The position numbers were made by a program, and so were the translations under genes. This document shows, one piece after another, positions 36,815 to 55,745 of a stretch of 64,000 nt of DNA. Every line of letters starts with the position of its first letter. Position 1 is the first letter of the stretch. The notes under the pieces were generated by a model that did not search any database, had not been told where the DNA came from, and was given only the letters and a program-made list of their open reading frames with translations. Origin of the DNA: Thiomicrorhabdus sp. 6S3-12 (GTDB lineage Bacteria; Pseudomonadota; Gammaproteobacteria; Thiomicrospirales; Thiomicrospiraceae); NCBI RefSeq assembly GCF_017571475.1, contig NZ_JAGETW010000004.1, positions 62,001-126,000 on the forward strand, in the 5' to 3' direction.

Positions 36815-37079
36815 TCGTATGTCTCTTGCTGTCGTCGCCCTAGGCTGTGATAGGTTGCTGCAATAGGTTGTAAAAGGCTTCGATAAATTCTTATCTCACT
36901 TATGTATGAATTATGGCGCATCCGTATCCTGACGTTCAATCATCGCAAAAGAATTTCCGGCCAGACAAGCAAGTGCGTCAAACAGGAAATTTATCAAGAT
37001 AATTTGGACTCGACCGACAAATCCGCTATGATTCTGCCACCGAGCTACGATTGATAAAATTCCGTGAAAACACCGTCTT

Positions 37080-37712
37080 ATGAATAAACAGAAACGATTA
37101 GAAATATTCCAACGCCTCAGCGAAGCGATTCCGGAACCGGAAACCGAGCTGGAGTATTCCAGTACTTTTGAGCTGCTGATCGCGGTGATTCTTTCCGCCC
37201 AGGCAACCGACAAAGGCGTCAATATCGCCACCCGCAAGCTGTTTCCGGTAGCCAATACGCCGGAAGCGATCTATGCCTTGGGCGTAGACGGTCTTAAAGA
37301 GTACATCAAAACCATCGGTCTGTTTAACTCCAAAGCGGAAAACATTATCAAAGCCTGCAAAATGCTGGTAGAACTGCACGGCTCGGTGGTTCCGGACAAT
37401 CGTAAAGATCTTGAAGCCCTGCCGGGTGTCGGCCGCAAGACGGCGAATGTCGTTCTCAATACCGCTTTCGGTCAGCCAACCATGGCAGTCGATACACATA
37501 TCTTTCGCGTCTCCAACCGCACTAAACTGGCGCCGGGTAAAACCGTGCTTGAAGTGGAAAAGAAACTGCTCAAAAATGTACCGAAAGAGTATCTGATCCC
37601 GGCACATCACCTGCTGATTCTGCACGGCCGTTATACCTGCACCGCTCGTAAACCGCGCTGCGGCGCCTGCTGTATCTACGATTTGTGCGAATACAAAGAA
37701 AAAACCGAGTAA
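37080..37712 (+). CDS. nth: Endonuclease III
   Basis: Base-excision repair DNA glycosylase/AP lyase for oxidised pyrimidines. 210 residues. Helix-hairpin-helix LPGVGRKTANVV has the catalytic lysine K120, and D138 lies in VDTHIFR, at E. coli numbering. The [4Fe-4S] loop has C187, C194, C197 and C203, plus an additional C198. It follows the rnf operon, a common linkage. Confidence 0.97.
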   Translation: MNKQKRLEIFQRLSEAIPEPETELEYSSTFELLIAVILSAQATDKGVNIATRKLFPVANTPEAIYALGVDGLKEYIKTIGLFNSKAENIIKACKMLVELHGSVVPDNRKDLEALPGVGRKTANVVLNTAFGQPTMAVDTHIFRVSNRTKLAPGKTVLEVEKKLLKNVPKEYLIPAHHLLILHGRYTCTARKPRCGACCIYDLCEYKEKTE

Positions 37713-37727
37713 TAACCGGATAATCTC

Positions 37728-38159
37728 ATGCTATATACATCCGAAAGAGACAAATTACGCCTGTTCTATGTCGAATGCTGGAAAAAGGCACGCAACGGCC
37801 TGCCGATGGACCCGATGGAGCAGATGGTCGCGCGCGTGATCGAAATGCACCCGGAATATCACGCCATGCTGGAAAACGAAAAACTCGGCAACGAGTACAA
37901 GCCGGAAGACGGCGAAACCAATCCGTTTCTGCACATGGGCATGCACCTCGGCCTGCAGGAACAGGTGGTTATGGATCGTCCGGCCGGCATCAAAGCGGTC
38001 TATCAGCAACTGGGGGAAAAGCTCGGCGATGTGATGCAGACCGAACACGCCATGATGGACTGTCTCGGCGAAATGATGTGGCAGGCGCAACGCTCGCAGT
38101 CCGAGCCGGACGAAATGGCCTACCTCAAGTGCCTGCAAGAACTGCTGGTCAAATATTAA
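37728..38159 (+). CDS. DUF1841 family protein
   Basis: 143 residues, fully helical, with family blocks LRLFYVECWKKARNG, NPFLHMGMHLGLQEQV and DCLGEMMWQAQRS. The many histidines and methionines are characteristic of the family. Function unknown. It is 15 bases behind nth and ahead of the RNase H gene, probably one transcript. Confidence 0.85.
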   Translation: MLYTSERDKLRLFYVECWKKARNGLPMDPMEQMVARVIEMHPEYHAMLENEKLGNEYKPEDGETNPFLHMGMHLGLQEQVVMDRPAGIKAVYQQLGEKLGDVMQTEHAMMDCLGEMMWQAQRSQSEPDEMAYLKCLQELLVKY

Positions 38160-38169
38160 GGCGCATTTC

Positions 38170-38673
38170 TTGGATTTCCGGCAGCACACCCCTTATGCTT
38201 TGCGCGAGCTGCAATCCGAATATGAATTTCAACTTTATAGCGACGGAGCCTACTTCAAGCAATGCCAGCTTGGCGGCTGGGGTCTCGCCATCTATAACAA
38301 AACCGGACAGCTCATCGACAGCCTTTCTGGCGTACAGATTTCCCATTCCAGTCTGGAAATGGAACTGATCGCAGCGATTAAGGCATTACAGTGGCAACTA
38401 CAGCAACACCCCGGCAGCCCGATCGCCCTTTTCACCGACGCACAGATTCTGCTGGAAGGCCTGTTTGATAAATACCCGAAATGGCAGGAAAACAACTGGC
38501 ATTCGGCCAACGGCAACCCGGTCGTTTATGCCGAACTCTGGCAACAACTCTACTCTCTGGCACAAAGCGCCCCCGTCGATTTTTACTGGATTAAAGGCCA
38601 TACCACCAACAAACAAAACCAGCTTGCCGATCAGCTCGCCAGAGAAAAAATCCTCCAATCACAGCAATCCTGA
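38170..38673 (+). CDS. RNase HI-like protein
   Basis: 167 residues from a TTG start at 38170 preceded by AAGG. No earlier or nearby ATG fits, and the next in-frame methionine lies after the first active-site residue. The RNase H fold residues are D25 (YSDGAY), E65 (EMELIAA), D90 (FTDAQ), H144 (KGHTTN) and D154 (LADQLA), so the enzyme should be catalytically competent against RNA/DNA hybrids. A degraded copy of its last 25 codons lies at 40555-40632. Confidence 0.87.
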   Translation: MDFRQHTPYALRELQSEYEFQLYSDGAYFKQCQLGGWGLAIYNKTGQLIDSLSGVQISHSSLEMELIAAIKALQWQLQQHPGSPIALFTDAQILLEGLFDKYPKWQENNWHSANGNPVVYAELWQQLYSLAQSAPVDFYWIKGHTTNKQNQLADQLAREKILQSQQS

Positions 38674-38824
38674 ATAAACTGCACAAGAACGGATATATAC
38701 AACTAAAAACTGCAAAAGAGCGTCTTAAAAAGATCGTTATTGCAAAGTCTATCAAATTTGTTTCCAATAGCTTTTAACAAGGTAATATGGCTTAGACAGA
38801 ATCTTCTAACGAAAAGGAAACAAT
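38674..38824 (+). promoter_or_regulatory. Upstream region of the NYN-LOTUS gene
   Basis: 151 AT-rich bases with no gene. GAAAAGGAAAC just before 38825 is a good ribosome site. The base composition drops here compared with the nth-RNase H block, marking the left edge of the accessory segment. Confidence 0.35.
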
Positions 38825-39553
38825 ATGGCTAAGAGAAGCCGTATAGCTCTGCTTATTGATTGCGACAACGTCAGCTACAATTCAATTGAAGGTGTGCTTG
38901 AGGAACTCGCCAAATATGGAACCGTGAATGTCCGCCATGCCCATGGAGACTGGAATAATCAAAGCCTTTCCGGCTGGCGCGACAAACTGCATCCGAATGC
39001 GATAAGACCGATGCAGCAATTCGCTTATACCAAAGGAAAAAATGCCACCGATTCGGCCATGATTATTGATGCCATGGATTTACTTTACAGTGGCAATGTC
39101 GATGCTTTCGCCTTAATGACCAGTGACAGTGACTTTACCCCGTTGGTTCTGAGAATGCTTGAAAGCGGTCTGCCGGTATACGGCTTTGGTGAAAAGAAAA
39201 CCCCGCAGCCGTTTGTTGATGCCTGCTCCACATTTATCTACACAGAGAACCTGGATTTGGAGAAAGACGAACAATCAAACTCACCGATCCACCAAACCAA
39301 GCGAAGCAAGAATGAATTGCGCGGAGACACCGCTCTTGTACGATTGTTGCGGACCGCGGTAGAACAGACTTCGGACGACGATGGTTGGGCACACATGAGT
39401 AAAGTCGGACACTATATCTCCAATAACAGTTCATTTTCACCGGTCAATTACGGATTTAAAAAAGTGAGTGATCTGATCAGAGCCAGCGAGCTTTTCGATA
39501 TTGAGATGCGCAACGACGGTTCTGCAATGTATATAAGAGACGCGCGCCAATAA
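38825..39553 (+). CDS. NYN-domain (LabA-like) protein with C-terminal LOTUS/OST-HTH domain
   Basis: 242 residues. The N-terminal NYN/PIN-like nuclease domain (about 5-145) shows acidic positions ALLIDCDNVS, NATDSAMIIDAMDLL and MTSDSDFTPLVLRM, the expected metal-binding carboxylates. The C-terminal domain (about 165-242, ALVRLLRTAVEQTSDDDGWAHMSKVG to the end) is an OST-HTH/LOTUS RNA-binding module. Such proteins are putative RNases; the target is unknown. It lies in the accessory segment between the RNase H gene and the scar at 40485. Confidence 0.85.
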   Translation: MAKRSRIALLIDCDNVSYNSIEGVLEELAKYGTVNVRHAHGDWNNQSLSGWRDKLHPNAIRPMQQFAYTKGKNATDSAMIIDAMDLLYSGNVDAFALMTSDSDFTPLVLRMLESGLPVYGFGEKKTPQPFVDACSTFIYTENLDLEKDEQSNSPIHQTKRSKNELRGDTALVRLLRTAVEQTSDDDGWAHMSKVGHYISNNSSFSPVNYGFKKVSDLIRASELFDIEMRNDGSAMYIRDARQ

Positions 39554-39677
39554 GGTTGTAGGAAGAGAATTTAACAGCCCTGTTTTCACCTCAAAGCAAT
39601 TACTTTCCAACCGAGCCATGCAGTTTTATTGCCGGTTAGTATCCATCAACAAATACACACTGCAGGATAGAAACTTA

Positions 39678-40004
39678 ATGAATAACGCGACACCGATAAT
39701 CAGGTTATTTTTTGCCAAGATGAAGCCCGAATTTTTTCAGTTATCCGAGGATGAGCAAAAACAGTTCATGGCTCGAGACAGGGCAAACCTTGACGCTCTG
39801 GGAATGAAAGCTGTTTCAATGATCGACTGCACTGCACATGACCCACAATGGGACTACATTGGTGTAGAAAGCTGGCCATCATTGCAAGCGGTCGAGGAAC
39901 GGGAAAAATTCGAGAATGAAGAACTGCAGATTTCTCGCTATGTCGACTATAAAGTTCATTTGGGCGTTGAGCAATCCTTTGATGATTATGGTCAAAGCCA
40001 ATAA
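39678..40004 (+). CDS. Unrecognised small protein
   Basis: 108 residues from the ATG at 39678, preceded by AGGATAG. I do not recognise the family. It is charged and soluble, and begins with a beta-strand-like IIRLFFAKM. A pattern such as WDYIGVESWPSLQAVEER resembles small alpha/beta-barrel or monooxygenase-like single-domain proteins, but this is only an impression. The reading could extend back to 39618 without a clear ribosome site. It is followed 45 bases later by the DUF4260 gene. Confidence 0.6.
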   Translation: MNNATPIIRLFFAKMKPEFFQLSEDEQKQFMARDRANLDALGMKAVSMIDCTAHDPQWDYIGVESWPSLQAVEEREKFENEELQISRYVDYKVHLGVEQSFDDYGQSQ

Positions 40005-40048
40005 ACAACGACCTCTACCCTCTAAAACGTTGTAAACAAGAGAACTCT

Positions 40049-40432
40049 ATGTCATTTGTAACAGGACAAGTAAAAACGGTTTTGCGGCTTGAAGGCTTAT
40101 CGATTATGTTGCTCTCGGCACTGGTTTTCCATCAGTACAGCGCAGACTGGATACTGTTTGCCTGGCTGTTTCTAGTGCCGGATCTAGCGTTTTTAGGCTA
40201 TATATTCAATTCCAAATTCGGAGCAATCTTATACAACACAACCCACTCGATGATTGGACCGGCCCTGTTACTGGCCTTAGGACTGCTTAGCGATACCGAT
40301 TTAGCCATTTCCGTGGCCCTTGTCTGGTTTGCGCACATCGGTTTTGACCGCGCCTTAGGTTATGGTTTGAAATACGGCAGTGGTTTTACCGACACCCATT
40401 TGGGAAAAATCGGTTCCGAAAGAAATACCTGA
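40049..40432 (+). CDS. DUF4260 family membrane protein
   Basis: 127 residues with about four hydrophobic segments (MLLSALVFHQYSADWILFAW, LVPDLAFLGYIF, MIGPALLLALGLL, AISVALVWFAHIG). The ends RALGYGLKYGSGFTDTHLG and PDLAFLGY are family marks of DUF4260. Function unknown. It is the last intact gene before the duplicated-end scar and the cassette array. Confidence 0.8.
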   Translation: MSFVTGQVKTVLRLEGLSIMLLSALVFHQYSADWILFAWLFLVPDLAFLGYIFNSKFGAILYNTTHSMIGPALLLALGLLSDTDLAISVALVWFAHIGFDRALGYGLKYGSGFTDTHLGKIGSERNT

Positions 40433-40484
40433 TCAACAGGCGCAACCCCCTTTTGTAAAAAGCGTTGATGCCCTTCTATCCAGT

Positions 40485-40556
40485 TCAATGTCGAAATGTC
40501 CAAGACGCAAACGCAAGGGTAAAGAGCGCAATCAGCATCATCGGGCAGATTTGCGG
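40485..40556 (-). pseudogene. Remnant of an ABC-2 permease 3' end
   Basis: The minus strand reads PQICPMMLIALFTL then AFASWTFRH and a TGA stop. It matches the last residues of the intact permease at 43489-43557 (PQIWPMMLIALFTLSSAAW...FRH) at 18 of 23 positions. Nothing permease-like continues upstream, because the sequence switches at 40556 to an RNase H remnant. This is a truncated copy with its original stop codon. Confidence 0.8.
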
Positions 40557-40632
40557 TCATACCGCCAACATACAAAACCAGCTTGCCGATCAACTGGCTC
40601 GTGAAACCATTGTAAATGCGCATTCAGCCTAA
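40555..40632 (+). pseudogene. Remnant of an RNase HI-like 3' end
   Basis: The plus strand reads GHTANIQNQLADQLARE then TIVNAHSA and a TAA stop. The intact gene at 38170 reads GHTTNKQNQLADQLARE then KILQSQQS; 16 of the first 19 residues agree. The 5' part is absent, replaced by the permease remnant. The two remnants abut at the GG(T/C)CAT shared by both genes. Confidence 0.8.
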
Positions 40633-40780
40633 CTAAAGAACCCATTAAGTACTGGATTTAATCCACTTAAAAAACTATTATGGATGCAGTTTACAGATTT
40701 ACGGCAATGCTATTTAGGTCAAATAAAATCGCACCTAAATCCCATAACCCGTTAAAAAACAAAGAATTTTCAAAGTAAAC

Positions 40781-40853
40781 ACATCCTAAATACTGATATA
40801 AAACGGCAGTTTTATTACTGCTTCAAATACACTTCTTACAAGTATTAGGATGT
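40781..40853. repeat. Nested inverted repeat left of the cassette array
   Basis: Left arm ACATCCTAAATACT (40781-40794) pairs with AGTATTAGGATGT (40841-40853), leaving one unpaired A. Inside it GCAGT/ACTGC (40806-40821) forms a second stem. It ends ten bases before the array's first core GTTATGC. It may be a degenerate recombination site, an attI-like region, or simply a leader hairpin for the TIR gene. Confidence 0.5.
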
Positions 40854-40890
40854 CTAATAATAGTTATGCACAATCAAAGGAAACTGAACT

Positions 40891-41262
40891 ATGGCAAGTA
40901 AGAAAACTATCTTTGTTGCTTTTGCAATCGAAGACGAAAAAATTCGGAACATGATTAAGGGGCAATCCTTAAATACGGATTCTCCTTTCGAGTACATAGA
41001 TATGTCTGTTAAAGAGGCATACGACGAAGAATGGAAGAAAAAAGTTCGAACTCGGATACTCCGGTCTGATGGTGTTTTAGCAATAGTTAGCGAAAATTCA
41101 TTAAAATCAAGTGGACAGAAGTGGGAAATTAAGTGCGCGAAAGACGAGAAAGTAAAAGTTCGCGGAATTTGGGCATACAAAGGTGATCGTACCAATATCG
41201 AAGGTTTGAATACGATGGTTTGGACGTGGGACAACATTGCTAACTGGATTGATAGCCTCTAA
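40891..41262 (+). CDS. Short TIR protein (ThsB/DUF1863-like), candidate Thoeris sensor
   Basis: 123 residues, a single TIR-like Rossmann domain. It opens with a strand [19 protein letters not shown], has a middle strand [11 protein letters not shown], and then W78-E79 in [13 protein letters not shown], where the ThsB family places its catalytic glutamate. No other domain is attached. In Thoeris systems such proteins detect phage infection and make a cyclic ADP-ribose-type signal from NAD+. The ribosome site is AAAGGA about ten bases before the ATG. The stop TAA shares a base with the start of the next gene (TAATG), indicating coupled translation. Family recognition is by eye. Confidence 0.82.
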
Positions 41263-42248
41263 TGCGAAAAGCTCTTATTGTTGGAATCGACTATTATACA
41301 AACGTCAGCCCCCTTTTTGGCTGTGTTAACGATTCATTTTCGGTCAAAGCTATGTTGGACCGTCATGCAGACGGTTCCGTAAATTTCGGAGTGAAGCACC
41401 TCGTATCGACTGGTCCCAACGATACATGTGACCGCGAAGAGCTGCGTAGTGCAATCCAAGAATTGTTTTCCGGCGATGGCGAAGTTGCTGTTTTGTATTT
41501 TGCTGGCCATGGACATATCGAGGCTACCGGTGGTTACCTTTGTTCTTCCGATATTAAAACAGGAAATGATGGTGTTCCGTTAGCAGAGATAATGGTTATG
41601 GCTAACCAGTCTAGAATACAGAACAGGGTAATAGTTCTAGACAGTTGTCATAGTGGTGTTGCAGGGGGAAGTGCTTTACAGCAAAAAGTCGCAGAGATAA
41701 GTGACGGTGTAACAATTTTAACCGCCTCAACAGCGGAGCAATATGCAACAGAAGAAAACGGTGCAGGTGTTTTTACTAGCCTTTTAGTTGATGCTTTAGG
41801 AGGGGCTGCCGGAAACCTTGTCGGCGATGTAACTCCTGGTGGTGTTTACGCACATGTAGATCAGTCGCTTGGCCCTTGGGCTCAACGGCCGGTATTCAAA
41901 ACTAATGTAAACCGTTTTGTATCTCTACGAAAAGTCCAACCTCCATTGGCAATTACTGAACTCCGTCGTATTTCTGAATTTTTCCCTTCTTCGGGCTTCC
42001 AGTTTCAGCTTGATCCAACATATGAACCTGAACGCCACGAATCATGGGAAAAAGATCCTCAAGGTATTCCACCTCCTGATCCAGAACACAATGCAATTTT
42101 TGAGATATTACAAAAGTACAATCGTGTTGGCTTAGTCGTTCCAGAAGGTGCACCACATATGTGGCACGCAGCCATGGAGAGTAAGTCCGTTCGTCTAACA
42201 GTTCTTGGGGAACACTACCGCAGCTTGGCTCATAAAGGACTAATATAG
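41262..42248 (+). CDS. Caspase-like protease, candidate type IV Thoeris effector
   Basis: 328 residues. The N-terminal caspase (peptidase C14) fold, about 1-225, starts [20 protein letters not shown]. It has the catalytic histidine H83 in YFAGHGH and the cysteine C129 in VLDSCHSG. The C-terminal region (about 228-328) is a separate domain ending [18 protein letters not shown] and is a candidate ligand-binding or regulatory part. In type IV Thoeris, a TIR-made N7-cADPR signal activates a caspase-like protease that degrades cell proteins and aborts infection. The overlapping TIR gene fits this. Activation and ligand are inferred. Confidence 0.85.
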
Positions 42249-42276
42249 TTTTTTTCGTGTGTTTCTGCAAAAAAAT

Positions 42277-42348
42277 GCATAACAAAGCGCTGCTGCTGGA
42301 CAAATTTTCCGCTGCGCTCCAAATTTGCCGCAGAGCGCGGCGTTAGCC
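42277..42348 (+). other. attC recombination site 1
   Basis: 72 bases. R'' is GCATAAC (42277-42283) and R' is GTTAGCC (42342-42348). The inner arms GCGCTGCTGC (42287-42296) and GCAGAGCGC (42330-42338) pair with one extrahelical G, the classic attC asymmetry that sets orientation. CAAATTT/AAATTTG adds a central stem. Confidence 0.9.
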
Positions 42349-43004
42349 AAATAGGATCATTGATGCCACAACCCGTAATGAAATTAAAAATAGCCCCGGT
42401 AAAGAGCGCAGTTCGTGACCTTCGCAGCAATATGCGTTGGATTATCGTCATCGCTACTGTTTGGGTGCTTTATACACTTGCCAGTTCTGCTGTAATCCGT
42501 ATATGGGAGGATTGGGGGTATTGGCACTCGTGCTATTTCACTCTGATCAATATGACTACCGTTGGCTTCGGTGATGTCGTTCCTATAACGCAGCAAGGAA
42601 AGGTAGTGGCGGGGGTGAATTCCGTCGTTGGCTTGACGCTTTTTGGTGTCTTCGTAGCATCGATAACGATGGCGCTTCAGCCATCTTCGTTCGATGGCAC
42701 AGCAGAGTTGAAAGATGTTGCAGTGCCTGGAAGCAAGAGTGTTGAAGATGATGGGACAAATGAAGAGAAAGTAGGTCGCTTTCTTGAGGCTGTGAACGGA
42801 CTTGTTTCACTTAGTGACGAGGCGGGTGATGGTCGTCACCGGGACTATCCGAAGATCGTTGACATTCTTGTTGATGTGGATGGTGATACCGATAGAAGCA
42901 AGTACATACATCTACACGTCAGGATCAGAAATGGCTAACAAAGCCATTAAATTCGCTCCCTGCGGTCGCCGGACGCTCGTTCCTCGCGCCGTTTATGGCG
43001 GGCG
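42343..43004 (+). mobile_element. Integron-type gene cassette 2 (K+-channel-like gene)
   Basis: 662 bases from the G^TTAGCC crossover to G^TTATAA. R'' of its attC is GGCTAAC, the exact reverse complement of its left core GTTAGCC. It carries a single gene whose stop lies inside the attC. Confidence 0.87.
42363..42938 (+). CDS. Two-transmembrane potassium-channel-like protein
   Basis: 191 residues from the ATG at 42363. Topology is TM1 (about 25-46), pore helix and selectivity filter TTVGFGD (65-71), and TM2 (about 81-105), i.e. an Ion_trans_2/KcsA-like pore. Residues 110-191 form a hydrophilic cytosolic domain (GTAELKDVAVPGSKSVEDD onward, ending DGDTDRSKYIHLHVRIRNG). The TAA stop overlaps the R'' core of attC2. 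Channels of this type occur in some cassette arrays; an immune role is possible but unproven. Confidence 0.82.
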   Translation: MPQPVMKLKIAPVKSAVRDLRSNMRWIIVIATVWVLYTLASSAVIRIWEDWGYWHSCYFTLINMTTVGFGDVVPITQQGKVVAGVNSVVGLTLFGVFVASITMALQPSSFDGTAELKDVAVPGSKSVEDDGTNEEKVGRFLEAVNGLVSLSDEAGDGRHRDYPKIVDILVDVDGDTDRSKYIHLHVRIRNG

Positions 43005-43010
43005 TTATAA
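42933..43010 (+). other. attC recombination site 2
   Basis: 78 bases. R'' is GGCTAAC (42933-42939) and R' is GTTATAA (43004-43010). GCCATTAAATTCGC on the left pairs imperfectly with GCGCCGTTTATGGC on the right, giving the long palindrome expected of an attC. Confidence 0.85.
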
Positions 43011-43476
43011 CGCTCAAGGTAGATCGTGACAGGCAAGAGAATTACAAACAACCATAGCTTTGATTGTGAAGTTTTAGCTAATAATACAGTTGAATATTTC
43101 TCGGCTTTTTATACGGATGAGAGTAGAAACGACGTTTTAATGCTCGTTTTAAAGCTTAAGGAAATCGCACTCTATCAGCGCTTCTTTCTTGATGCGGCAC
43201 TTGGCTTTTGGGAAGAATGGGACGAGGAAGACACCTTCTACGATTTAGAGGATTTAGAGCATGTCGATCTTGCAAATGAGCTAAATCTTCTAGGAAAGAA
43301 AGTGTTGTCAATTACTTGTAAAGGCTCCTTTGAAGAATTCTCCTCAATAGAATTTGTATTCGAGGGAGTGAATTTATTATTAAAATTCAGTGATCATAAT
43401 GACATTGAGTCAGATATTGTGCTGGAAAGGTTATAACAAGCGCCTGCAATTTGCCCTCCTGCAGTTGAGGCGGACG
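43005..43476 (+). mobile_element. Integron-type gene cassette 3 (unknown protein)
   Basis: 472 bases. The left core GTTATAA is exactly complementary to R'' TTATAAC of attC3 at 43431. Its right end is the G of G^CTAGGC at 43476, next to the permease stop codon. Confidence 0.85.
43026..43436 (+). CDS. Unrecognised acidic cassette protein
   Basis: 136 residues from a GTG at 43026. The protein is acidic, with a central stretch FLDAALGFWEEWDEEDTFYDLEDLEH rich in Asp, Glu and aromatics (given here in part), and predicted alpha/beta. No family recognised. It fills the cassette, ends inside the R'' core of attC3 (stop 43434-43436), and starts 16 bases after the previous attC, as is normal for cassette genes. 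Confidence 0.65.
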   Translation: MTGKRITNNHSFDCEVLANNTVEYFSAFYTDESRNDVLMLVLKLKEIALYQRFFLDAALGFWEEWDEEDTFYDLEDLEHVDLANELNLLGKKVLSITCKGSFEEFSSIEFVFEGVNLLLKFSDHNDIESDIVLERL

Positions 43477-43482
43477 CTAGGC
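43431..43482 (+). other. attC recombination site 3, terminal
   Basis: 52 bases. R'' is TTATAAC (43431-43437). The R' position holds GCTAGGC (43476-43482) in place of a GTTRRRY core. CTGCA/TGCAG and GCCT/AGGC stems are visible. The altered last core fits insertion next to a non-attI secondary site, or later mutation. Confidence 0.75.
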
Positions 43483-44598
43483 ATTACGGTGTCTGAATAA
43501 CCATGCGGCAGAGGAAAGCGTAAACAGTGCTATCAGCATCATCGGCCAGATTTGCGGCCAAAGGGTTTCCAGGCTTAGATCCTGCAGGAAAACGCCACGC
43601 ACCACGACCAGAAAATAGCGCAGTGGATCGACATAGGTCAGCCACTGGATGACATCAGGCATATTGTCGATCGGCGTTGCAAAGCCGGATAGAATCACCG
43701 CCGGCACCATAAACATAAAGGCCCCCAGTAGCGCTTGCTGCTGCGTAGTGGAGAGCGCCGAAATCATCAGCCCTACTCCAATCGCGGACAAAAGAAAGAA
43801 GATCAACGCGAATTGCAGCAGGAAGTATTCTCCGCGAAAAGGCACGTCAAACCAGAACACCGCTATCAGAATAATAATATTACTTTCCAGCAGGCCGATC
43901 ATCAGCCCCGGCAGGGATTTTCCGATCAGAATTTCCAACGGCACAGCCGGTGTGACCAGAAGTTGATCAAAAGTCCCCTCTTCGCGCTCACGCGCTACCG
44001 ACAAAGCGGTGACGAGCAGCGAAACAACCAGCACAATCAAAGCGACGATTCCGGGTACAAAAAACCAGTTACTTTTCAGGTTTTCATTAAACCAGTTACG
44101 TTGAACCAAACTAACCGGCGCCTGATTCAACTGGTGGGCTTGAGCCCATTGCTCGTTAAAAGTCTTAATGACCTGCATGATATCGTTTTGCGCCAGCAAG
44201 GCGGTATTGGAATTGCGCCCATCGACAATGACTTGCAACTGGGTTGTCCCGGTCTCTTGCAAGCGGGATGAAAAGTCGCTGGGAAAATTCAATATTATCA
44301 ACGCCTTTTTATTATCAATCAAAGGCGCAACCTCTCTTTGATGGTGCAACTGTGCGACGATTTCAAAGGTGTCGGAACCGGCCAGATGGCCGATAATCTC
44401 CTGCGAAATAATTCCCTGATCCTGATTAAAGATTGCCACCGGCGCTTGCTTAAGATCAAAGGTGGCGGCATAACCGAAAACAAACAGCTGAATTATTGGC
44501 GGCCCGATAACCACAAAACGTGCGCGTTTATCTTGCAGCAAAACACGAAACTCTTTGATTGTCAGCGCCCAGATACGCGCCCAGGATAACCAAGCCAT
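43477..44598 (-). CDS. ABC-2 type permease (YbhR-like)
   Basis: 373 residues. An N-terminal membrane helix is followed by a large periplasmic loop (about 50-175) and five more helices, with the ABC2 signature EREEGTFDQLLVTPA. It is one of two permeases of an exporter with the downstream-encoded ATPase and HlyD partners. Its last codons differ from the remnant copy: after FRH it continues R-N-A and stops at TAG (43477-43479), which lies in the attC3 R' core, so cassette insertion reshaped the 3' end. The native end was probably FRH-stop. Overlaps the next permease gene. Confidence 0.9.
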   Translation of the reverse strand: MAWLSWARIWALTIKEFRVLLQDKRARFVVIGPPIIQLFVFGYAATFDLKQAPVAIFNQDQGIISQEIIGHLAGSDTFEIVAQLHHQREVAPLIDNKKALIILNFPSDFSSRLQETGTTQLQVIVDGRNSNTALLAQNDIMQVIKTFNEQWAQAHQLNQAPVSLVQRNWFNENLKSNWFFVPGIVALIVLVVSLLVTALSVAREREEGTFDQLLVTPAVPLEILIGKSLPGLMIGLLESNIIILIAVFWFDVPFRGEYFLLQFALIFFLLSAIGVGLMISALSTTQQQALLGAFMFMVPAVILSGFATPIDNMPDVIQWLTYVDPLRYFLVVVRGVFLQDLSLETLWPQIWPMMLIALFTLSSAAWLFRHRNA

Positions 44599-45728
44599 TA
44601 ATCCAGCCTCTTATGCGATTTTTTCAGAACAATCAGGGTAAGAATGATGCCCATGACGAACAATGCCAGCAGGTTCGGTACCAGCACCCAGAGTATATCC
44701 CCGGCCAGAAATTCGGTTTGCAGCAAGGCAACAAAATAGCGCGCCGGAACGATATGCGTTACCGCCTGAATAAACAGTGGCGTACTGCCGATATCAAAAA
44801 TAAAACCGGATAGCAGAAACGCCGGCAAAAAGGTGACGATAATCGCGATCTGTCCGGCGACAAACTGCGTTTTGCCGACGGTGGAAATCAAGATACCCAT
44901 CGACAAAGCCACCCACAGAAAGAGTGCCGAGCTGAGAAAAAGAAGCCACAGCGAGCCGCGCAGCGGTACATCAAACAGAAAGAGCGCCATAACCAGACTT
45001 AACAGCATGCCGCCCATTCCTAAAATAAAGTACGGAATAACCTTGCTCAACAGCAGTTCCTGAATGGAAATCGGCGTTACCAGCAACGCTTCCATCGTTC
45101 CCCTCTCCCATTCGCGGGCCACCACCAGAGAAGTCAGCAAAGCCCCGATCAGCGTCATAATGATGGCAATCAATCCCGGAACCAGAAAGTAGCGGCTATT
45201 GACCTGCGCATTAAACCAGATACGGTTAACCGTCTCGACCGGCTGCAGCACCCGAATACCCCGTTCTGCGCCGTAGGCGATCAGCCAGGTCTGCCAGGTG
45301 CCCTGCACATAACCGTTAATCAAATTGGCGGTATTGGAGTCCACTCCGTTGACGAGCAGCTGAACCGGTGCCGTACCGGGTTGATGAAAATCGGCGGCGA
45401 AATTGCTTTGCAAAATCAGCAGAGCCTTGATTTTTCCGGTTTGCATGGCCTGCTTACCCTGAGCCAAGTTCTCGAAAGTCTGAGGTGTAAAGTAATCGTT
45501 TTGATGAAAATGGCTGACGAAATCCTGAGATTCGGCCGAAGGCTGCTGTTGGACAATTCCGATCTTGATATGTTTGGCATCCAGGTTAACGCCGTAACCG
45601 AAAATCAACAATAGAATAACCGGCAGTATAAAAGCGATGCTGATACTGCTTGGATCGCGAATAATCTGCAGAAACTCTTTATGGATCAACCCGCGTATGC
45701 GCATCCATTTTAAAGACATTCCGCTCAT
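44598..45728 (-). CDS. ABC-2 type permease (YbhS-like)
   Basis: 376 residues with the same layout as its neighbour: first helix about 30-48, periplasmic domain to about 180, then five helices, with the motif REWERGTMEALLVTPISIQELL. In YbhGFSR-like exporters the two permeases form a heterodimer in the inner membrane. Its start ATGA overlaps the stop of the ATPase gene by four bases. Confidence 0.9.
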   Translation of the reverse strand: MSGMSLKWMRIRGLIHKEFLQIIRDPSSISIAFILPVILLLIFGYGVNLDAKHIKIGIVQQQPSAESQDFVSHFHQNDYFTPQTFENLAQGKQAMQTGKIKALLILQSNFAADFHQPGTAPVQLLVNGVDSNTANLINGYVQGTWQTWLIAYGAERGIRVLQPVETVNRIWFNAQVNSRYFLVPGLIAIIMTLIGALLTSLVVAREWERGTMEALLVTPISIQELLLSKVIPYFILGMGGMLLSLVMALFLFDVPLRGSLWLLFLSSALFLWVALSMGILISTVGKTQFVAGQIAIIVTFLPAFLLSGFIFDIGSTPLFIQAVTHIVPARYFVALLQTEFLAGDILWVLVPNLLALFVMGIILTLIVLKKSHKRLD

Positions 45729-47506
45729 GGCTTCGTCTCCGCGGCCTTATCCGCTTCGATAATACGGATAAACGCTTCTTCCATAACGCTGTGCCCGGCT
45801 TCCTGTTTAATTTCTGCCGGCGTGCCGAGCGCCATAATCCGACCGTTGGCCATAATCGCCATACGGTCGCAATATTCGGCCTCTTCCATAAAGTGCGTGG
45901 TTACCATAATGGTCACTCCCGCTTCGGCCAGCGCATTGATTTTATTCCAGAAATCCCGTCTTCCCATAGGATCGACGCCGGAAGTCGGTTCATCCAGAAA
46001 CAGGATATCCGGCTCATGCATTAACGCGCAGGCCATCGCCAAACGCTGCTTAAAGCCGAGCGGAAGATCCCGGCTCGGCTGCTTAAGAAGATGCTGCAGT
46101 TCAAAAGTCTCAATCGCCCATTCCATGCGCTGTTGACGCTTTTTTCCTTTCAATCCGTAAACCTTGCTGTAAAAAGCGAGGTTTTGTGCCACCGACATAA
46201 CGCCGTACAGAGAAAATTTCTGCGACATATACCCCAATTTAGCACGCGCCTGAGCTCGAGCATGACGCAGATTAAGCCCGGCGACCTGCAAGTGTCCTTC
46301 CGTGGCTGGAAGCAGTCCGCACAGCATGCGGAAAGTGGTGGTTTTTCCGGCGCCGTTGGCACCGAGCAAACCGAAAATTTCACCGCGCTGAACCTTGAAA
46401 GACAAATGATCCACGGCGACAAAGTCACCGAATCGACAGACCAGTTGATCAACTTCTATGGCGGGCCGATCATCAAATTCGCTCGCAATGATTTCCGGCG
46501 TATCAAGCGTTGGCGGATCGGATTGCGGCGCCGATTCAGTCTGCTGATTAAGCAGGTCGACAAAGGCATCTTCAAAGCGGGCTTCGACCGCTTCGATTTT
46601 CAGATCATGCAGCTTCGATTGACCGGCTACTGTGTTGTGATGCAAAAATTCATTCGGTGTTTGCAGTGCTTCTCGGGTCAGTATGCGAATATCATCGCCG
46701 AGAATCAGCGCATCCTGAACCCAAGGTTGCGCCGCCATTTGGTTTTTCAACTGGCGTTTGCCGCCTGGTGCGCGAGAAGAAACCAGAAAAGTTCGATTGT
46801 TCAATGGCCGGGTAAAATGCTGCGGCGGCCCCTGCGCCAGCAAACGCCCTTCATGCAAAAGCTTGATGTCATGACAGCGTTCCGCTTCGTCCAGATAGGC
46901 GGTGCTGAGCAGAACGCTCATGCCTTGTTCTTCAACCGCCTGATAGACGATCTGCCACAATTCACGGCGCGAAACCGGATCGACTCCGACGGTCGGTTCG
47001 TCCAGCAACAGCAAATCGGGGGATTTCAACAGCGTACAAGCCAGACCGAGCTTTTGTTTCATACCACCGGAAAGGTTGCCGGCCAGACGATTGCCGAAAG
47101 GCGCCAGTCCGCTCATTGCCAGCAGCTTCTCGAAACGCTCCGGTCGTTGTGCTTGCGCCAGCCCCTGCAGATCGGCATACAGGCGAAGATTCTCCAGCAC
47201 TGTCAAATCCTGATACAGACCGAACTGTTGAGGCATATAACCGATAACCGACTGAATTCCCAGCGGCGCTTCGGCAACCTCCATCCCCAGAACATTAATG
47301 CTGCCTTTATCCAGTGTCAGCAGACCGGCAATCAGACGCATCAGCGTGGTTTTACCGGCCGCATCGGCACCGATCAGCCCGGTTACCTGTCCGGGCCGAA
47401 TATCGAAGCTGACATCGGACAGCGCATCAATGACCCGCCCCGGCAAAGTGAACTGTTTGCTGACGCCCTTGATGATAAGCGGCGATGACGAGGTCATCAC
47501 AGTCAT
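45725..47506 (-). CDS. ABC transporter ATPase with two nucleotide-binding domains (YbhF-like)
   Basis: 593 residues. NBD1 has Walker A IGADAAGKTTL, signature NLSGGMKQKLG and Walker B LLLLDEPTVGVDP. NBD2 starts at about 350 with GANGAGKTTTF and FLDEPTSGVDP. Its signature is degenerate (LPLGFKQR), so hydrolysis may be asymmetric. E. coli YbhF (578 residues) has the same plan. Substrate of such systems is not certain; drugs and cations have been reported for relatives. Confidence 0.92.
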   Translation of the reverse strand: MTVMTSSSPLIIKGVSKQFTLPGRVIDALSDVSFDIRPGQVTGLIGADAAGKTTLMRLIAGLLTLDKGSINVLGMEVAEAPLGIQSVIGYMPQQFGLYQDLTVLENLRLYADLQGLAQAQRPERFEKLLAMSGLAPFGNRLAGNLSGGMKQKLGLACTLLKSPDLLLLDEPTVGVDPVSRRELWQIVYQAVEEQGMSVLLSTAYLDEAERCHDIKLLHEGRLLAQGPPQHFTRPLNNRTFLVSSRAPGGKRQLKNQMAAQPWVQDALILGDDIRILTREALQTPNEFLHHNTVAGQSKLHDLKIEAVEARFEDAFVDLLNQQTESAPQSDPPTLDTPEIIASEFDDRPAIEVDQLVCRFGDFVAVDHLSFKVQRGEIFGLLGANGAGKTTTFRMLCGLLPATEGHLQVAGLNLRHARAQARAKLGYMSQKFSLYGVMSVAQNLAFYSKVYGLKGKKRQQRMEWAIETFELQHLLKQPSRDLPLGFKQRLAMACALMHEPDILFLDEPTSGVDPMGRRDFWNKINALAEAGVTIMVTTHFMEEAEYCDRMAIMANGRIMALGTPAEIKQEAGHSVMEEAFIRIIEADKAAETKP

Positions 47507-47522
47507 GCGTTATTTGCTCCGT

Positions 47523-48572
47523 TCATTGCGGGAGCACTTGGCCCGAAGATTGAGACACATCGCAATCCGGTGCAGACTCAGGAAGCTTTTGCAGATCGAT
47601 TGTGACCGTCGCCGGCATCCCCAGTCTTAATTCATGCGAAGGATCACAACTGTATATGCGGGCTTGATAAACCAGCTGGGTTCGAAGTTCTTCGGTTTGC
47701 ACGCTTTTCGGCGTAAACTCGGCTACCGGAGAGATATAACCGACCCAGCCGCGATAGGTTTTACCGGGATAGCTGTCCGTTAAAATCTCGGCTGGCATGC
47801 CCAGTTTTATTTTTCCCAGATCATTTTCGGCGATATAAGCCCGAACCCACTTGGGGTTTTGCACGGCGAGCGTCATGACCACTTGCTGTGGCTGTGCCAG
47901 GTCACCGCGCTCCAGAACACGATCGCGGACTATGCCGCCTATCGGCGAGCGCAAAACGGTATCGTCGAAATCTTTTTGCGCCAGCGCTACCTGAGCCTGA
48001 GCCTGTGCGATCTGGGCACGTACCCGAACAAGATCTTCATCGCGCGCACCCAATTCGGCAACCTTCCAGGCGTCATAAGCAGCAATCTCCTGATGGTGCA
48101 AGGCTTTGGCTTTAGCTTTGGCATTGTCGACTGCGTCCTGAGAAGCCAATTTTTTCGGCAGCAATGATTTCAAACGCTCATAACTGCTTTGCGCCTGCTG
48201 CGCTTCCGTCCGGGTCGCGAGATAGGTATTTTTGGCTTGTGCAATCTCTTCGGCGCGATTGCCGGAGAGCAACTTATCGAGTTCGGCCTGTAAAGCGCTG
48301 ACATTGGCTTTAGCCGAATCCAGTTTTGCCTGATAGCGGGTTGAATCGATAGCCGCCAGTTCCTGACCGGGCTTGACTTCGGATCCCTCGGTAACCAGCA
48401 TTTCCCGAATTTGGCCGCTAACCTGAAAAGCCAGATTCACTTGACGCAAATCGACGTTGCCGTAAAGCGTAAGCTGGTTGGGCTGCGGTTCAACGGTTTT
48501 ATGCAGGTAATGCCAGACAAAGTACGCGGAGACGACCAACAGGACAAGCCCCAATAGAAAACGTTTTTTCAT
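47523..48572 (-). CDS. HlyD-family membrane fusion protein (YbhG-like)
   Basis: 349 residues. An N-terminal membrane anchor (LLGLVLLVVSAYFVW, about 5-22) is followed by a lipoyl/barrel domain with GSEVKPGQELAAID. A long coiled-coil hairpin (about 75-200) comes next, then the second half of the barrel. It is the periplasmic adaptor of the exporter, probably connecting to a TolC-like outer-membrane channel encoded elsewhere. First gene of the four-gene minus-strand operon. Confidence 0.9.
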   Translation of the reverse strand: MKKRFLLGLVLLVVSAYFVWHYLHKTVEPQPNQLTLYGNVDLRQVNLAFQVSGQIREMLVTEGSEVKPGQELAAIDSTRYQAKLDSAKANVSALQAELDKLLSGNRAEEIAQAKNTYLATRTEAQQAQSSYERLKSLLPKKLASQDAVDNAKAKAKALHHQEIAAYDAWKVAELGARDEDLVRVRAQIAQAQAQVALAQKDFDDTVLRSPIGGIVRDRVLERGDLAQPQQVVMTLAVQNPKWVRAYIAENDLGKIKLGMPAEILTDSYPGKTYRGWVGYISPVAEFTPKSVQTEELRTQLVYQARIYSCDPSHELRLGMPATVTIDLQKLPESAPDCDVSQSSGQVLPQ

Positions 48573-48809
48573 TAAAACTCCGAAACGTCGATAGATCGTG
48601 TGTTGATGTGTATCGTTAAATTAACACAAAGCACTGAAACCCGGAAAGGTAAAAGGGACGCTCTTTGTTAATGGAGTTAGCCGCAAATAATTCATCGTAA
48701 CAAAGGAGCGAAAAGAGGCACGTAAAACGTTTCGCCATCAAAATGACCATCAAAACGAATTATCTACTAAAATATGCGCATTCTCATTTCAATAACTGAA
48801 GACCACTCT

Positions 48810-49289
48810 ATGAGCGAGAAAAAGTGCATTATTTCCTGGGATCGTCTGCATCGCGATTGTCGCGAGCTGTCGCTACGAATTAACGAAATGGATCGCAAAT
48901 GGGATGGCATTATTGCCATTACCCGCGGCGGAATGATTCCGGCGGCAATACTGGCTAGAGAACTCGGTATTCGCGTCGTGGACAGCATTTCAGTTAGAAC
49001 TTACAGTCATCAGCAGATTGAAGAACCGGTTATCCTGAATGATGTTAATGCCACCGAAGACGGGGAAAATTTTCTGCTAATCGACGACCTGGTCGATACC
49101 GGTGTAACCGCCGAATTTGTCCGAAAACGTTTACCTAAAGCGTATTTCGCGACCGTGTATGCAAAACCCGAAGGCCGCCCTTTAGTCGATACCTTTATTA
49201 CCGAAGTTCCGCAAGACACCTGGATCTATTTTCCTTGGGATTTGCACTTGGATTACGTTAAGCCAATCGCCAAAGAAGCCGACGAATAA
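48810..49289 (+). CDS. gpt: Xanthine-guanine phosphoribosyltransferase
   Basis: Salvages guanine and xanthine to GMP and XMP with PRPP. The ATG at 48810 gives 159 residues aligned from the start with E. coli Gpt (MSEK...W). The PRPP-binding motif is LLIDDLVDTGVTA, and AKPEGRPLVDTFITEVPQDTW is a family block. The reading upstream to 48774 has no family match. Single-gene unit. Confidence 0.95.
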   Translation: MSEKKCIISWDRLHRDCRELSLRINEMDRKWDGIIAITRGGMIPAAILARELGIRVVDSISVRTYSHQQIEEPVILNDVNATEDGENFLLIDDLVDTGVTAEFVRKRLPKAYFATVYAKPEGRPLVDTFITEVPQDTWIYFPWDLHLDYVKPIAKEADE

Positions 49290-49404
49290 CGACAGACGCT
49301 TTCAATTCCGCCGTAAGGAATTCGCAATTTCCGGCGATATCGAATTTGAATGCTTGAATGTTATACTGCCTTGAATCCAAAACCATCAGATTTAGGGGGG
49401 GCGA

Positions 49405-50550
49405 ATGGCTTTTTTTGAAAACTTTTTAAATCTGGCTCTGGAATCTGCACCGTGGCTGGTGCTCGGTCTGATTCTGGGCGGTTTGATTAAAAACCTGCTC
49501 CCGCTGGAATTTCTGCACAAGCACCTGAGCCAGAGTTCACTCTCTTCCGTCGGTAAAGCAACGCTTTTGGGCGCGCCTCTGCCACTGTGTTCCTGCGGTG
49601 TGGTTCCGGCTGCGGTCGGACTCCGTCAGGCCGGCGCGTCACGCCCGGCAACCGTCTCATTTCTGATTTCCACACCGGAAACCGGCGTCGATTCGCTGAG
49701 CGTTACCTATGCACTGCTCGGTCCGGTCATGCTGGTCGCGCGTTTTATCAGCGCCCTTTTTTCCGCGCTGTTTTCCGGCTGGCTGGTCTGGTGGTTTGAA
49801 AAGCGCCAGTGGATTGAAACTGATCCCGGCCATCCGCAAGAAAAAAGCGAATCAGGCGATTGCTCCAGTTCTTGTTGCAGCTCCGAGAGTGCCCATCAAA
49901 CAACAAGTTCCTGCTGCAGTTCACAGAGTAACGCCGCAGAACAGAGTTGTTGCGGCAGCTCTTGCAGTAGTGAAAGCAAACAAGCAGAGGACACATCGAT
50001 CTGGCGTAAAACCTGTAAAGGACTGAGTTATGCCTTCGGTTCGATGCTGGATGATATTATTTTCTGGCTGCTGCTCGGACTGGGGTTTGCCGCGCTGGTG
50101 CAGACGTTTGTTCCGACAGACTTTCTGGCACAATGGGGTAGCGGCCTTGCGGCGATGCTGATGATGCTGTTGATCGGTATTCCGATGTATGTCTGCGCCA
50201 CCGCCTCGACACCGATTGCGGTTGGACTGATTCTGGCCGGAATCTCGCCCGGTGTCGCGCTGGTTTTCCTGCTGTCCGGTCCGGCGACCAATATCGGTAC
50301 CCTCGGTATTATCGCCAAAATCCTCGGCAAAAAAACCATGCTGCTGTATCTATCCGGAACTGTCTCCGCAGCTTTAGCCGCAGGTATTATATTGGATCTT
50401 ATACTGGTGCAAAGCGGGATGAATGTTGTGACCGCCAGCCATCTGGACGAGCACAGTATTTCGATTTGGATTCAGGCTACGGCGCTCTTTATTCTGACAC
50501 TGGCGGCATTGAATAATCTCAAAAATAAATTCCGCATCGCAAAGCACTGA
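49405..50550 (+). CDS. SO_0444-type Cu/Zn efflux permease with Cys-rich loop
   Basis: 381 residues, DUF318/ArsP-like permease with two four-helix halves. GAPLPLCSCGVVPAAVGLRQAG and TPETGVDS in the first half and CATASTPIAVG and SGPATNIGTLG in the second are family marks. The central loop (about 150-192) has 11 cysteines in Ser/Cys clusters, including CSSSCCSS and SCCGSSCSS, a likely soft-metal binding stretch. Seven G residues (49395-49401) lie immediately before the ATG and act as the ribosome site. Confidence 0.85.
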   Translation: MAFFENFLNLALESAPWLVLGLILGGLIKNLLPLEFLHKHLSQSSLSSVGKATLLGAPLPLCSCGVVPAAVGLRQAGASRPATVSFLISTPETGVDSLSVTYALLGPVMLVARFISALFSALFSGWLVWWFEKRQWIETDPGHPQEKSESGDCSSSCCSSESAHQTTSSCCSSQSNAAEQSCCGSSCSSESKQAEDTSIWRKTCKGLSYAFGSMLDDIIFWLLLGLGFAALVQTFVPTDFLAQWGSGLAAMLMMLLIGIPMYVCATASTPIAVGLILAGISPGVALVFLLSGPATNIGTLGIIAKILGKKTMLLYLSGTVSAALAAGIILDLILVQSGMNVVTASHLDEHSISIWIQATALFILTLAALNNLKNKFRIAKH

Positions 50551-51040
<490 letters not shown>

Positions 51041-51066
51041 TCTTTGCAGATAGATCGAATACCTCG

Positions 51067-51098
51067 AAAAGGCAGGCGTTAAAACCTGCCTTTTTTAT
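51067..51098 (+). terminator. Terminator after the cold-shock gene
   Basis: Stem AAAGGCAGG/CCTGCCTTT with an eight-base loop, then a T-run. Confidence 0.9.
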
Positions 51099-51201
51099 TG
51101 CCTGCCGTTTTTCATCCCCATCTTTCACTGCTCCATGCTCCGCCATCAAAAATCATAAATTAAGCTGATACAGGCATAATCCGATTCATGCCGTAAAAGT
51201 G

Positions 51202-51243
51202 TTGACGTTTTGATTCATACAGATAAACTAACAAACGTTAGTT
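51202..51243 (+). promoter_or_regulatory. Promoter with an overlapping operator-like palindrome
   Basis: A -35-like TTGACG (51202-51207) lies 16 bases from TAAACT (51224-51229). The perfect inverted repeat AACTAAC-AAAC-GTTAGTT (51226-51243) starts inside the -10. This is the layout of a repressor-controlled promoter of TetR style. The regulator is not encoded in the window in an obvious place. Confidence 0.55.
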
Positions 51244-51274
51244 AGATAACTGTAAATAATTAATGGAAGTAAAT

Positions 51275-51676
51275 ATGAATAGAATTTTGAACAAAGTATG
51301 GGGCTATTGGTTGATTACCGATCTTTTACTGATTCTTGAGGTAACGGTTTGGCAAGGTTACGGTTTGATGGCCGCAGCCGCATTGACGCTATTGCAGACT
51401 CTGCACTTTTTTACGGAAAATCCGAGAATTTCGGCGTTTCCGGTTCAGGTTCGTATCGCCTATCTGCTTTTATTGGTTATCGCTTTCTGGCCGCCGTTGT
51501 ACTGGCTACTGTATCCGGTAATCCTCGGGACAACCGCAATGGTACTGTTTGATTACTGCTTCCTGGCGCGCTTTATGTCTCTCATGCCCTGGAATCATAA
51601 TCAACGTTTCTCATGGTCGATGATCTATCAGACGTTTTTCAGCAAGCCTGTCGAAGGCTCTGTAATGAAGAATTGA
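51275..51676 (+). CDS. Small membrane protein, unrecognised
   Basis: 133 residues from the ATG at 51275 (the reading can extend to 51263). Four hydrophobic helices: about 8-26, 31-47, 66-82 and 86-105. It is rich in Trp and Leu (FWPPLYWLLYPVILGTTAMVLF). I do not recognise the family. It lies behind the operator-like promoter, so it is probably induced by something. Confidence 0.65.
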   Translation: MNRILNKVWGYWLITDLLLILEVTVWQGYGLMAAAALTLLQTLHFFTENPRISAFPVQVRIAYLLLLVIAFWPPLYWLLYPVILGTTAMVLFDYCFLARFMSLMPWNHNQRFSWSMIYQTFFSKPVEGSVMKN

Positions 51677-51774
51677 GATTTGATCTTCCGACTGGAGATC
51701 AGAAAGAATCCGTAATCAACTAACAGCAAAATCAGTCTTATTGATTTGAATCTGACTCTTATGAGTTCCTTTTT

Positions 51775-51806
51775 CCGCCGCAAATGCCAACTTGCGGCGG
51801 CTTTTT
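51775..51806 (+). terminator. Terminator after the small membrane protein gene
   Basis: Nine-pair stem CCGCCGCAA/TTGCGGCGG with an eight-base loop, then CTTTTTA. Confidence 0.85.
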
Positions 51807-51875
51807 ATAAGCAGAAAAATTTCGGCAGTTTGCCAAATCTGTCCCGCTTTTTCCTGCACAATCCTCTCTTAAGGG

Positions 51876-52493
51876 CTAAAAAGCGTTGACAGCCAATCCG
51901 ACAGCACTGATCAGCATAATCACTCCGGCAAAACGGTTCAGACTTCGCTCCAGAGCGTGACTCTGCAGCCAGCGCCTAGCCTGTGTCGCCAGTAAGGCGT
52001 AAAACGCCATTACCGCTGCTATCACACCGATAATGATCGAAGTTGCCAGAACCCCATCCTGCAAAGCAATCTGCTCGACGGAGAGAAACGTCTGTAAAAA
52101 ACCGATATAAAACAGTATCACTTTCGGGTCGGCAAAGATGGTCATGAACCCACACGCAAAACGAGCGCCCGCTGCAGAGATTTCGGCTTCGGAAACTTTG
52201 TCGGCACGGGGTTTTCTCGACCAGTAGCGCCATCCGAGCCAGCACAAATAGAAAACACCGAAAAGTTGAATTCCTTTGAAGACGAATGGAAACGCTTCAA
52301 ACACGGCGCTCATGCCGAACAGTGCCAACAATACAAACAGCAGATCGCCGCTGATGATCCCGAGAATAATCGGAACAGCGCTCCGGAAACCGGAGGCAAG
52401 TGATTGGGAAACCGTCAACAGAACACCCGGCCCGGGCGTGACGGCCAGAAAAAACATCGCAATCGCCAGAGCAACGGCACTGTATAAGGTCAT
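51876..52493 (-). CDS. LysE/RhtB-family exporter
   Basis: 205-residue inner-membrane protein with about six helices. The amino-terminal MFFLAVTPGPGVLLTVSQSLASG motif (TPGPG) is diagnostic, as is GDLLFVLLALFG. Members export amino acids such as lysine, threonine or homoserine lactone; the substrate here is not deducible. Confidence 0.9.
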   Translation of the reverse strand: MTLYSAVALAIAMFFLAVTPGPGVLLTVSQSLASGFRSAVPIILGIISGDLLFVLLALFGMSAVFEAFPFVFKGIQLFGVFYLCWLGWRYWSRKPRADKVSEAEISAAGARFACGFMTIFADPKVILFYIGFLQTFLSVEQIALQDGVLATSIIIGVIAAVMAFYALLATQARRWLQSHALERSLNRFAGVIMLISAVGLAVNAF

Positions 52494-52542
52494 AAATTTA
52501 CCGTAAATTTAAACCGGGCAAACAACAACGGCCTGCCGACCC

Positions 52543-53262
52543 TTAATCGGATAAATAATAGGTGACGGTTGAAACCACGCGTACTTTTTTGATATAGGGC
52601 GTATTCTTGTCGCGGGGGATAATGCTGAACTGCCCCTGAGAGGCGGATTTGATCTTGCCGAGAACGCTCGATGAATCTTTGGCGAATTTATTGGCCACTT
52701 CACGCGCATTGCGTGTTGCCTCTTCAACCATCTCAGGTTTAACCTCATTCAAGCGGGTAAACAGATATTCTGTTCTCGACTCGTAATTATTGCCGGAAAG
52801 AACCACGCCCTGCTTACCCAGCTCCGAAAGGCGACTCTGCAAGGCTCTGACCCGTTCAATATTATGGGAATAGACCGTGACCGTCTGCGAAGCGGTATAA
52901 CGGAATTCAGCGCGCCCCTGACCGCCGAACTGCTGAGCGAGTTTGTCGGTGATTCCCGGTGCGGAAAAAGAAATTTCCGATGTTTCCACACCACCCGTTT
53001 GCAGGAAAGCGCTGACTTTGCGGCTATTATCTTCCAACGTCTGATAAACCTTGGTCAGGTCGTTATCCGCAGCGGAGAACTTGATCGGCCAGATGACCAC
53101 ATCAGCAGGAAACTCTTTCTCAGCCAGACCTTTGACCGTTACCACCCGCTCATAGGACTTGTATTCGATTGCCGCTTTACCCAGCAGCCATCCCAGCAAC
53201 CCCAAAGCGATTACCAGACTGAAACCTAAAATCAGTGCACTCGATTTCGAATTCGCGGTCAT
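52543..53262 (-). CDS. SIMPL-domain (DUF541) protein
   Basis: 239 residues. One N-terminal membrane anchor or signal helix (LILGFSLVIALGLLGWLLG, about 8-28) leads to a periplasmic SIMPL/BP26-type domain with VVTVKGLAEKEFPADVVIW. Relatives are periplasmic oligomers of poorly known function, sometimes linked to oxidative stress. Confidence 0.82.
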   Translation of the reverse strand: MTANSKSSALILGFSLVIALGLLGWLLGKAAIEYKSYERVVTVKGLAEKEFPADVVIWPIKFSAADNDLTKVYQTLEDNSRKVSAFLQTGGVETSEISFSAPGITDKLAQQFGGQGRAEFRYTASQTVTVYSHNIERVRALQSRLSELGKQGVVLSGNNYESRTEYLFTRLNEVKPEMVEEATRNAREVANKFAKDSSSVLGKIKSASQGQFSIIPRDKNTPYIKKVRVVSTVTYYLSD

Positions 53263-53290
53263 ACGGCCTCCTGTTTTATGGACGCAAAAC

Positions 53291-53788: not shown

Positions 53789-53878
53789 TTGCATTTTCCT
53801 TATCTCTTTTTACCACTCTCGGCCCCTGCATGCGTTCGATATATTCTTTCGAACGGCCGGAGCATGTCGCGGTAAAAC

Positions 53879-53902
53879 AAAAAAGGCGACCGAAGCCGCC
53901 TT
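53879..53902 (-). terminator. Terminator after glnS
   Basis: Stem AAGGCG/CGCCTT. The minus-strand reading continues into a T-run. Confidence 0.8.
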
Positions 53903-53908
53903 AACGAT

Positions 53909-55588: not shown

Positions 55589-55745
55589 GGAAATATCTAA
55601 CCTATAAACAAACTCATCAAGAAAAACGGGCCGCAAAACGGCCCTCTCATTATTGCGCGTGATTATAGCATAGGGCTTATAACGAGTGCGTTTTAAGGTA
55701 AGGCATTTTTATCGACAATAAGGTTTGCAATGCACCGTAAAACTG

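Follow-up and report, generated by a model that had tools for sequence, protein, structure and literature searches.

Fused ends of an RNase H gene and an ABC permease gene form a scar beside an attI-like site in Thiomicrorhabdus

Within the 64,000-nt stretch of the Thiomicrorhabdus sp. 6S3-12 genome analysed here (the window), about 160 bases of dead sequence consist of two broken gene ends fused together, copied from two neighbours, an RNase H gene and an ABC-2 permease gene, whose intact versions face each other convergently across 4.8 kb of other genes. This scar is real, well defined and accounted for by ordinary recombination, and it is ordinary in kind. It very probably arose through a single illegitimate recombination in the ancestor that the window genome shares with its closest sequenced relative (G020), a level of confidence that covers the joining event and neither of the two main routes to it; among the routes that we infer, tandem duplication in place is preferred and capture from a relative is a close second. 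The scar records a single micro-homology join, which shared sequence changes place in time, in what later became a cargo-exchange hotspot, and the locus shows the gap between two convergent genes becoming a double insertion site. Of wider value is the adjoining orphan attI-like site, which belongs to a family of such sites dispersed within the genus that mostly have no intI alongside.

The scar and its join

An earlier note on this DNA had placed the scar at 40485-40632, between intact and convergent RNase H and permease genes, and had counted 18 of 23 codons identical to the permease end and 16 of the first 19 codons identical to the RNase H end. Both counts were reproduced (78.3% for the permease part), and the intact genes do flank the scar in the orientation described (Table 1). 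The right limit also held, whereas the left limit proved about 9 nt short of the start at 40476, the left half matching the permease gene over its final 84 nt. Stop codons are present in the permease copy of the window scar. In the right half, identity is counted from GGCCA to the stop codon, and the ungapped repeat of the RNase H-like part extends to 40637.

Table 1. Features of the RNase H-permease locus, in window coordinates.
Feature	Position	Strand	Details
Intact RNase H gene, source of right scar half	38170-38673	+	PF00075, E = 9.5e-27; orthologue 95% aa in G020
NYN/OST-HTH gene, left-interval cargo	38825-39553	+	Absent at G020 locus
ORF128, left-interval cargo	39618-40004	+	Absent at G020 locus
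DUF4260 gene	40049-40432	+	PF14079, E = 9.6e-41; 90% aa in G020
Scar left half, copy of permease 3' end	40476-40559	-	62/84 nt vs 43477-43560
Join pentamer	40555-40559		GGTCA in window; GGCCA in G020 scar and both parent genes
Scar right half, copy of RNase H 3' end including stop	40555-40632	+	56/78 nt vs RNase H end
Spacer after scar	40633-40747		1 difference in 115 nt, window vs G020
attI/Pc-like site	40768-40868	+	Gene insertion point in GTTATGC core, ~40863-40869
Cassette-like genes (TIR, caspase-like, ion channel, 136-aa gene)	40891-43436	+	
Intact ABC-2 permease gene, source of left scar half	43477-44598	-	PF12698, E = 9.9e-40; 98% aa in G020

The two gene copies overlap by exactly five bases at the join. 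The G020 scar reads CAGATTTGCGGCCATACCGCCAACA, i.e., permease up to GGCCA and RNase H from GGCCA onward, and this pentamer is common to the permease (GCGGCCAGAG) and RNase H (AAAGGCCATACC) genes. The probability of at least five shared bases at a random join is ~0.005, assuming equal base frequencies. The later change of GGCCA to GGTCA in the window also converts a permease Trp codon to a stop.

In whole-genome DNA searches, the scar region matched the RNase H and permease ends of its own genome with E = 2.1e-9 and 7.3e-9, and those of G020 with E = 3.6e-16 and 5.0e-11, respectively. Chance similarity as the origin of the scar was ruled out by the E-values to both parent genes together with the presence of the scar in G020, and an assembly artefact was ruled out by the presence of the same junction in G020, whose genome is a single contig of 2.59 Mb. 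A third candidate, an RNase H end foreign to the group, was rejected on the finding that the scar ends are nearest to the window and G020 genes of all the RNase H ends compared. No mobile element with its own integrase and no tRNA target was seen at the locus, and in the relatives the scar sequences turned up neither within full-length genes nor in an unrelated element, which the earlier note had named as the findings that would speak against a duplication.

Age and later divergence

Among the 63 genomes of the order that were searched, the scar was found in the window genome and G020 only. Informative sites were drawn from four sequences, i.e., the genes and the scars of these two genomes, and gene-versus-scar grouping was observed at all 15 of them (11 in the permease tail, 4 in the RNase H tail). 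Since the two genes group together at every informative site, and so do the two scars, a single joining event preceded the split between the window genome and G020, which bears out the view in the earlier note that the event is old. No informative site joins the window gene with the window scar against G020, and a recent duplication or gene conversion in one genome was ruled out on this ground. An upper limit on age comes from genome G014: the four RNase H ends are all equidistant from it (43-45/60 identical), so the joining event followed the split from G014. RNase H and the permease lie side by side only in the window genome and G020; the remaining genus genomes have no permease beside RNase H, the closest permease outside the pair is 56% identical and located elsewhere, in G022, and a genome-contig search with the RNase H protein returned only a distant Leptolinea match.

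The changes within single scars number ~5 synonymous to 10 non-synonymous, as in unconstrained DNA, compared with ~10 synonymous to 5 non-synonymous among the gene-versus-scar changes that predate the split (both counted by eye; P = 0.14 for earlier versus later changes). The synonymous excess before the split gives at most a hint that the copies may have first diverged as working genes.

At four-fold sites, the divergence between the window and G020 is 2% in nth, 13% in RNase H, 27% in DUF4260 and 22% in the permease, and it reaches 41-48% from perm2 to HlyD (region examined, 37000-55636). Because it jumps along the locus in this manner, DNA from relatives appears to have been exchanged here, and the stepwise pattern points to a mosaic that arose through recombination between lineages. 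The divergence climbs inside RNase H and reflects exchange later than the split of the two genomes. The scar diverges less (15/157) than the four-fold sites of DUF4260 (15/56) and the permease (39/179), with P ~0.003 for each comparison. The spacer that follows differs from G020 at a single site while its flanks differ by 8-11%; it contains short inverted repeats (ATTTAGGT..ACCTAAAT) and has no Rfam match. The low divergence of the scar and of this 115-bp segment could reflect either a later segment exchange or some constraint near attI.

The scar might instead have a function, e.g., as a terminator or a small gene (frame 40465-40632) beside attI, and both the divergence below that of neighbouring four-fold sites and the near-identity of the spacer would fit such a role. 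However, no Rfam family matched 40400-40950, where a single sub-threshold microRNA match is noise, the changes within single scars look unconstrained, a later segment exchange would likewise lower divergence, and the permease end is in any case largely open in its antisense frame. A functional scar is therefore very improbable, and with no firm sign of function the scar is regarded as a non-functional relic.

Routes to the join and contents of the two intervals

That the 3' ends of a permease and an RNase H gene became linked at their common GGCCA is read directly in the sequence. In the proposed mechanism, this happened in the window/G020 ancestor and created two RNase H-to-permease intervals in head-to-tail arrangement, with the order of intact RNase H upstream, chimeric scar in the middle and intact permease downstream. 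The scar later decayed, and both intervals went on changing their contents, with turnover on the left of the genes that lie between RNase H and DUF4260 and on the right of the cassettes at the attI-like site. Against a single-event account stand the absence of the predicted ancestral layout from all genomes searched, the lack of shared sequence between the intervals and the low divergence of the scar.

The route proposed in the earlier note is tandem duplication in place, in which a stretch from the interior of RNase H to the interior of the permease would have been doubled between sister chromosomes at GGCCA, its contents being replaced later. It is the preferred route, with a probability just short of even. 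The observed order, orientation and micro-homology all follow from one step, in which the junction runs from the downstream end of the unit into its upstream end in the same orientation, and content turnover is known in both intervals. In bacteria, spontaneous duplications whose joins carry short repeats arise commonly (PMC3411829), but most of the joins verified in that work had longer repeats, and cut-offs of 8-12 bp were deduced. While order, orientation and the 5-nt overlap are as the duplication predicts, doubling beyond the two gene tails was not seen, i.e., Smith-Waterman alignment against shuffles, blastn and tblastx detected no homology between the two intervals from stop codon to stop codon. 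Because the intervals share nothing detectable there, duplication of anything past the two gene tails is not demonstrated; the interior of the unit is thus not found in both copies, which lowers this reading and does not eliminate it, as later replacement could hide the interior. The ancestor envisaged in the earlier note, with RNase H directly facing the permease and no inserts, had no counterpart among the 63 genomes of the order. In addition, the attI region, which is present in G014 and in the right copy, must have disappeared from the left one. Short identical tandem copies also usually collapse again.

No later replacement is needed to explain the differing contents of the intervals if a fragment of a diverged relative, RNase H-X-DUF4260-permease, was captured through a homologous crossover in RNase H and an illegitimate one at GGCCA, or if this fragment circularised at GGCCA and was inserted by one crossover. 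In either form, the recipient's own RNase H end would have been displaced together with its attI neighbour, and the product would be indistinguishable from the observed junction. The resulting RNase H-attI layout is that of G014, in which the attI-like site lies ~246 bp past the RNase H stop, compared with ~234 bp past the stop of the RNase H copy in the window. Since RNase H followed by attI is also found in G014, the broken RNase H end probably keeps its ancestral neighbour and the intact RNase H now faces newer DNA. Capture is further favoured by the jumps in four-fold divergence, which show DNA exchange at the locus, by the 3-10 bp micro-homologies that homology-facilitated illegitimate recombination leaves and the partial gene duplications that result from circle insertion (PMC3240628), and by the synonymous excess before the split, as if the copies had diverged while working. 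However, this excess is not significant and lies partly on the gene branch, and a donor would be needed with the same rare RNase H-permease neighbourhood, which is seen in two genomes only. We regard capture as a credible route that stands somewhat below an even chance.

The same product would also result from a larger duplication of the complete RNase H and permease genes, followed by a deletion that ran from the first permease into the second RNase H and closed at GGCCA. Micro-homology deletions are common (PMC3411829), but this sequence of two events, as opposed to one, is improbable, and the region shows no trace of further duplicated genes.

The earlier note had assigned the NYN and DUF4260 genes together to one copy of the duplicated unit. 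This applies to DUF4260, which is present in G020 and hence ancestral (it occurs in 3 of 32 genus genomes), and not to the NYN gene, which, like ORF128, is replaced by other genes in G020. The DUF4260 gene and its downstream spacer are the only parts of the left interval common to both genomes, and the G020 slot between RNase H and DUF4260 holds putative S8-type peptidase and lipoprotein genes, named from protein sequence. At its very end (38640-38673), the intact RNase H gene is markedly unlike that of G020 (40/60 in the final block, 57-60/60 before it), so the newer cargo seems to have replaced the RNase H tail in one lineage.

The attI-like site and related systems

In the right interval, the attI assignment was made by sequence alone, the same motif being found beside intI in G009 (C1:1132483) and beside a broken intI in G046 (C5:171998), the two cases in which intI was seen next to it. 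For the integron integrase, nothing in the window genome or G020 exceeded the TIGR02249 family cut-off, and an intI remnant adjoining the window attI had no blastx support. An ungapped attC scan overlooked true sites, and the gapped scan used instead gave a single clear attC in the window, at 42277-42348, by arm match. The window hairpins do not fold significantly better than shuffles, whereas one G020 site does. The 136-aa gene adjoining the permease is 96% identical in G020 and the two genomes have different genes on the attI side, the pattern expected from entry of new cassettes at attI. At 40891-42248, a TIR gene (ThsB-like, a weak match with E about 1e-4) precedes a caspase-like gene, and one attC lies downstream of the two. 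Type IV Thoeris combines TIR with a caspase-like protease (PMC12847820), and the two genes are laid out like such a defence pair, which would be borne as a cassette.

Across the genus, the ~100-bp attI/Pc-like motif (core TTTAGGATGTCTAATAATAGTTA) has 28 matches in 13 of 32 genomes, several of them with a promoter-like TTGACA upstream. A crude scan for attC near the dispersed sites gave a weak downstream signal (5/15 loci, vs 2/15 upstream). These sites are possible orphan attI platforms served in trans. Upstream of most other intI genes in the genus lies a site of another type (core GCCTTATACTAAATGTTA; loci L068-L076), and thus two attI types coexist. The dispersed orphan sites are more interesting than the scar and merit separate work. 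A broader reading, which we consider rather doubtful, is that of a two-compartment exchange site, in which the scar would part a homologous-exchange interval (RNase H to DUF4260) from an orphan-attI cassette interval that uses an outside integrase, the genus having scattered such sites as stand-alone cassette platforms.

Among known systems, spontaneous tandem duplications (e.g., in Salmonella, PMC3411829) resemble the scar in their head-to-tail order and the short shared sequence at the join, but here only 5 nt are shared and no duplication can be recognised inside the copies. Homology-facilitated illegitimate recombination and circle insertion (PMC3240628) likewise leave micro-homology of 3-10 bp at one end, a range that includes the 5-nt GGCCA, with a partly duplicated gene alongside; here, however, the recipient genes carry no visible deletion, and the donor and homologous crossover are putative. 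The right interval is similar to integrase-less cassette clusters (CALIN) and to integrons that lost intI in its attI-like site, cassette-like genes and one clear attC, and in its variable attI-side genes with a distal gene shared between the two genomes. The locus differs from these in that the attI-like site is kept and its copies are scattered over the genomes of the genus.
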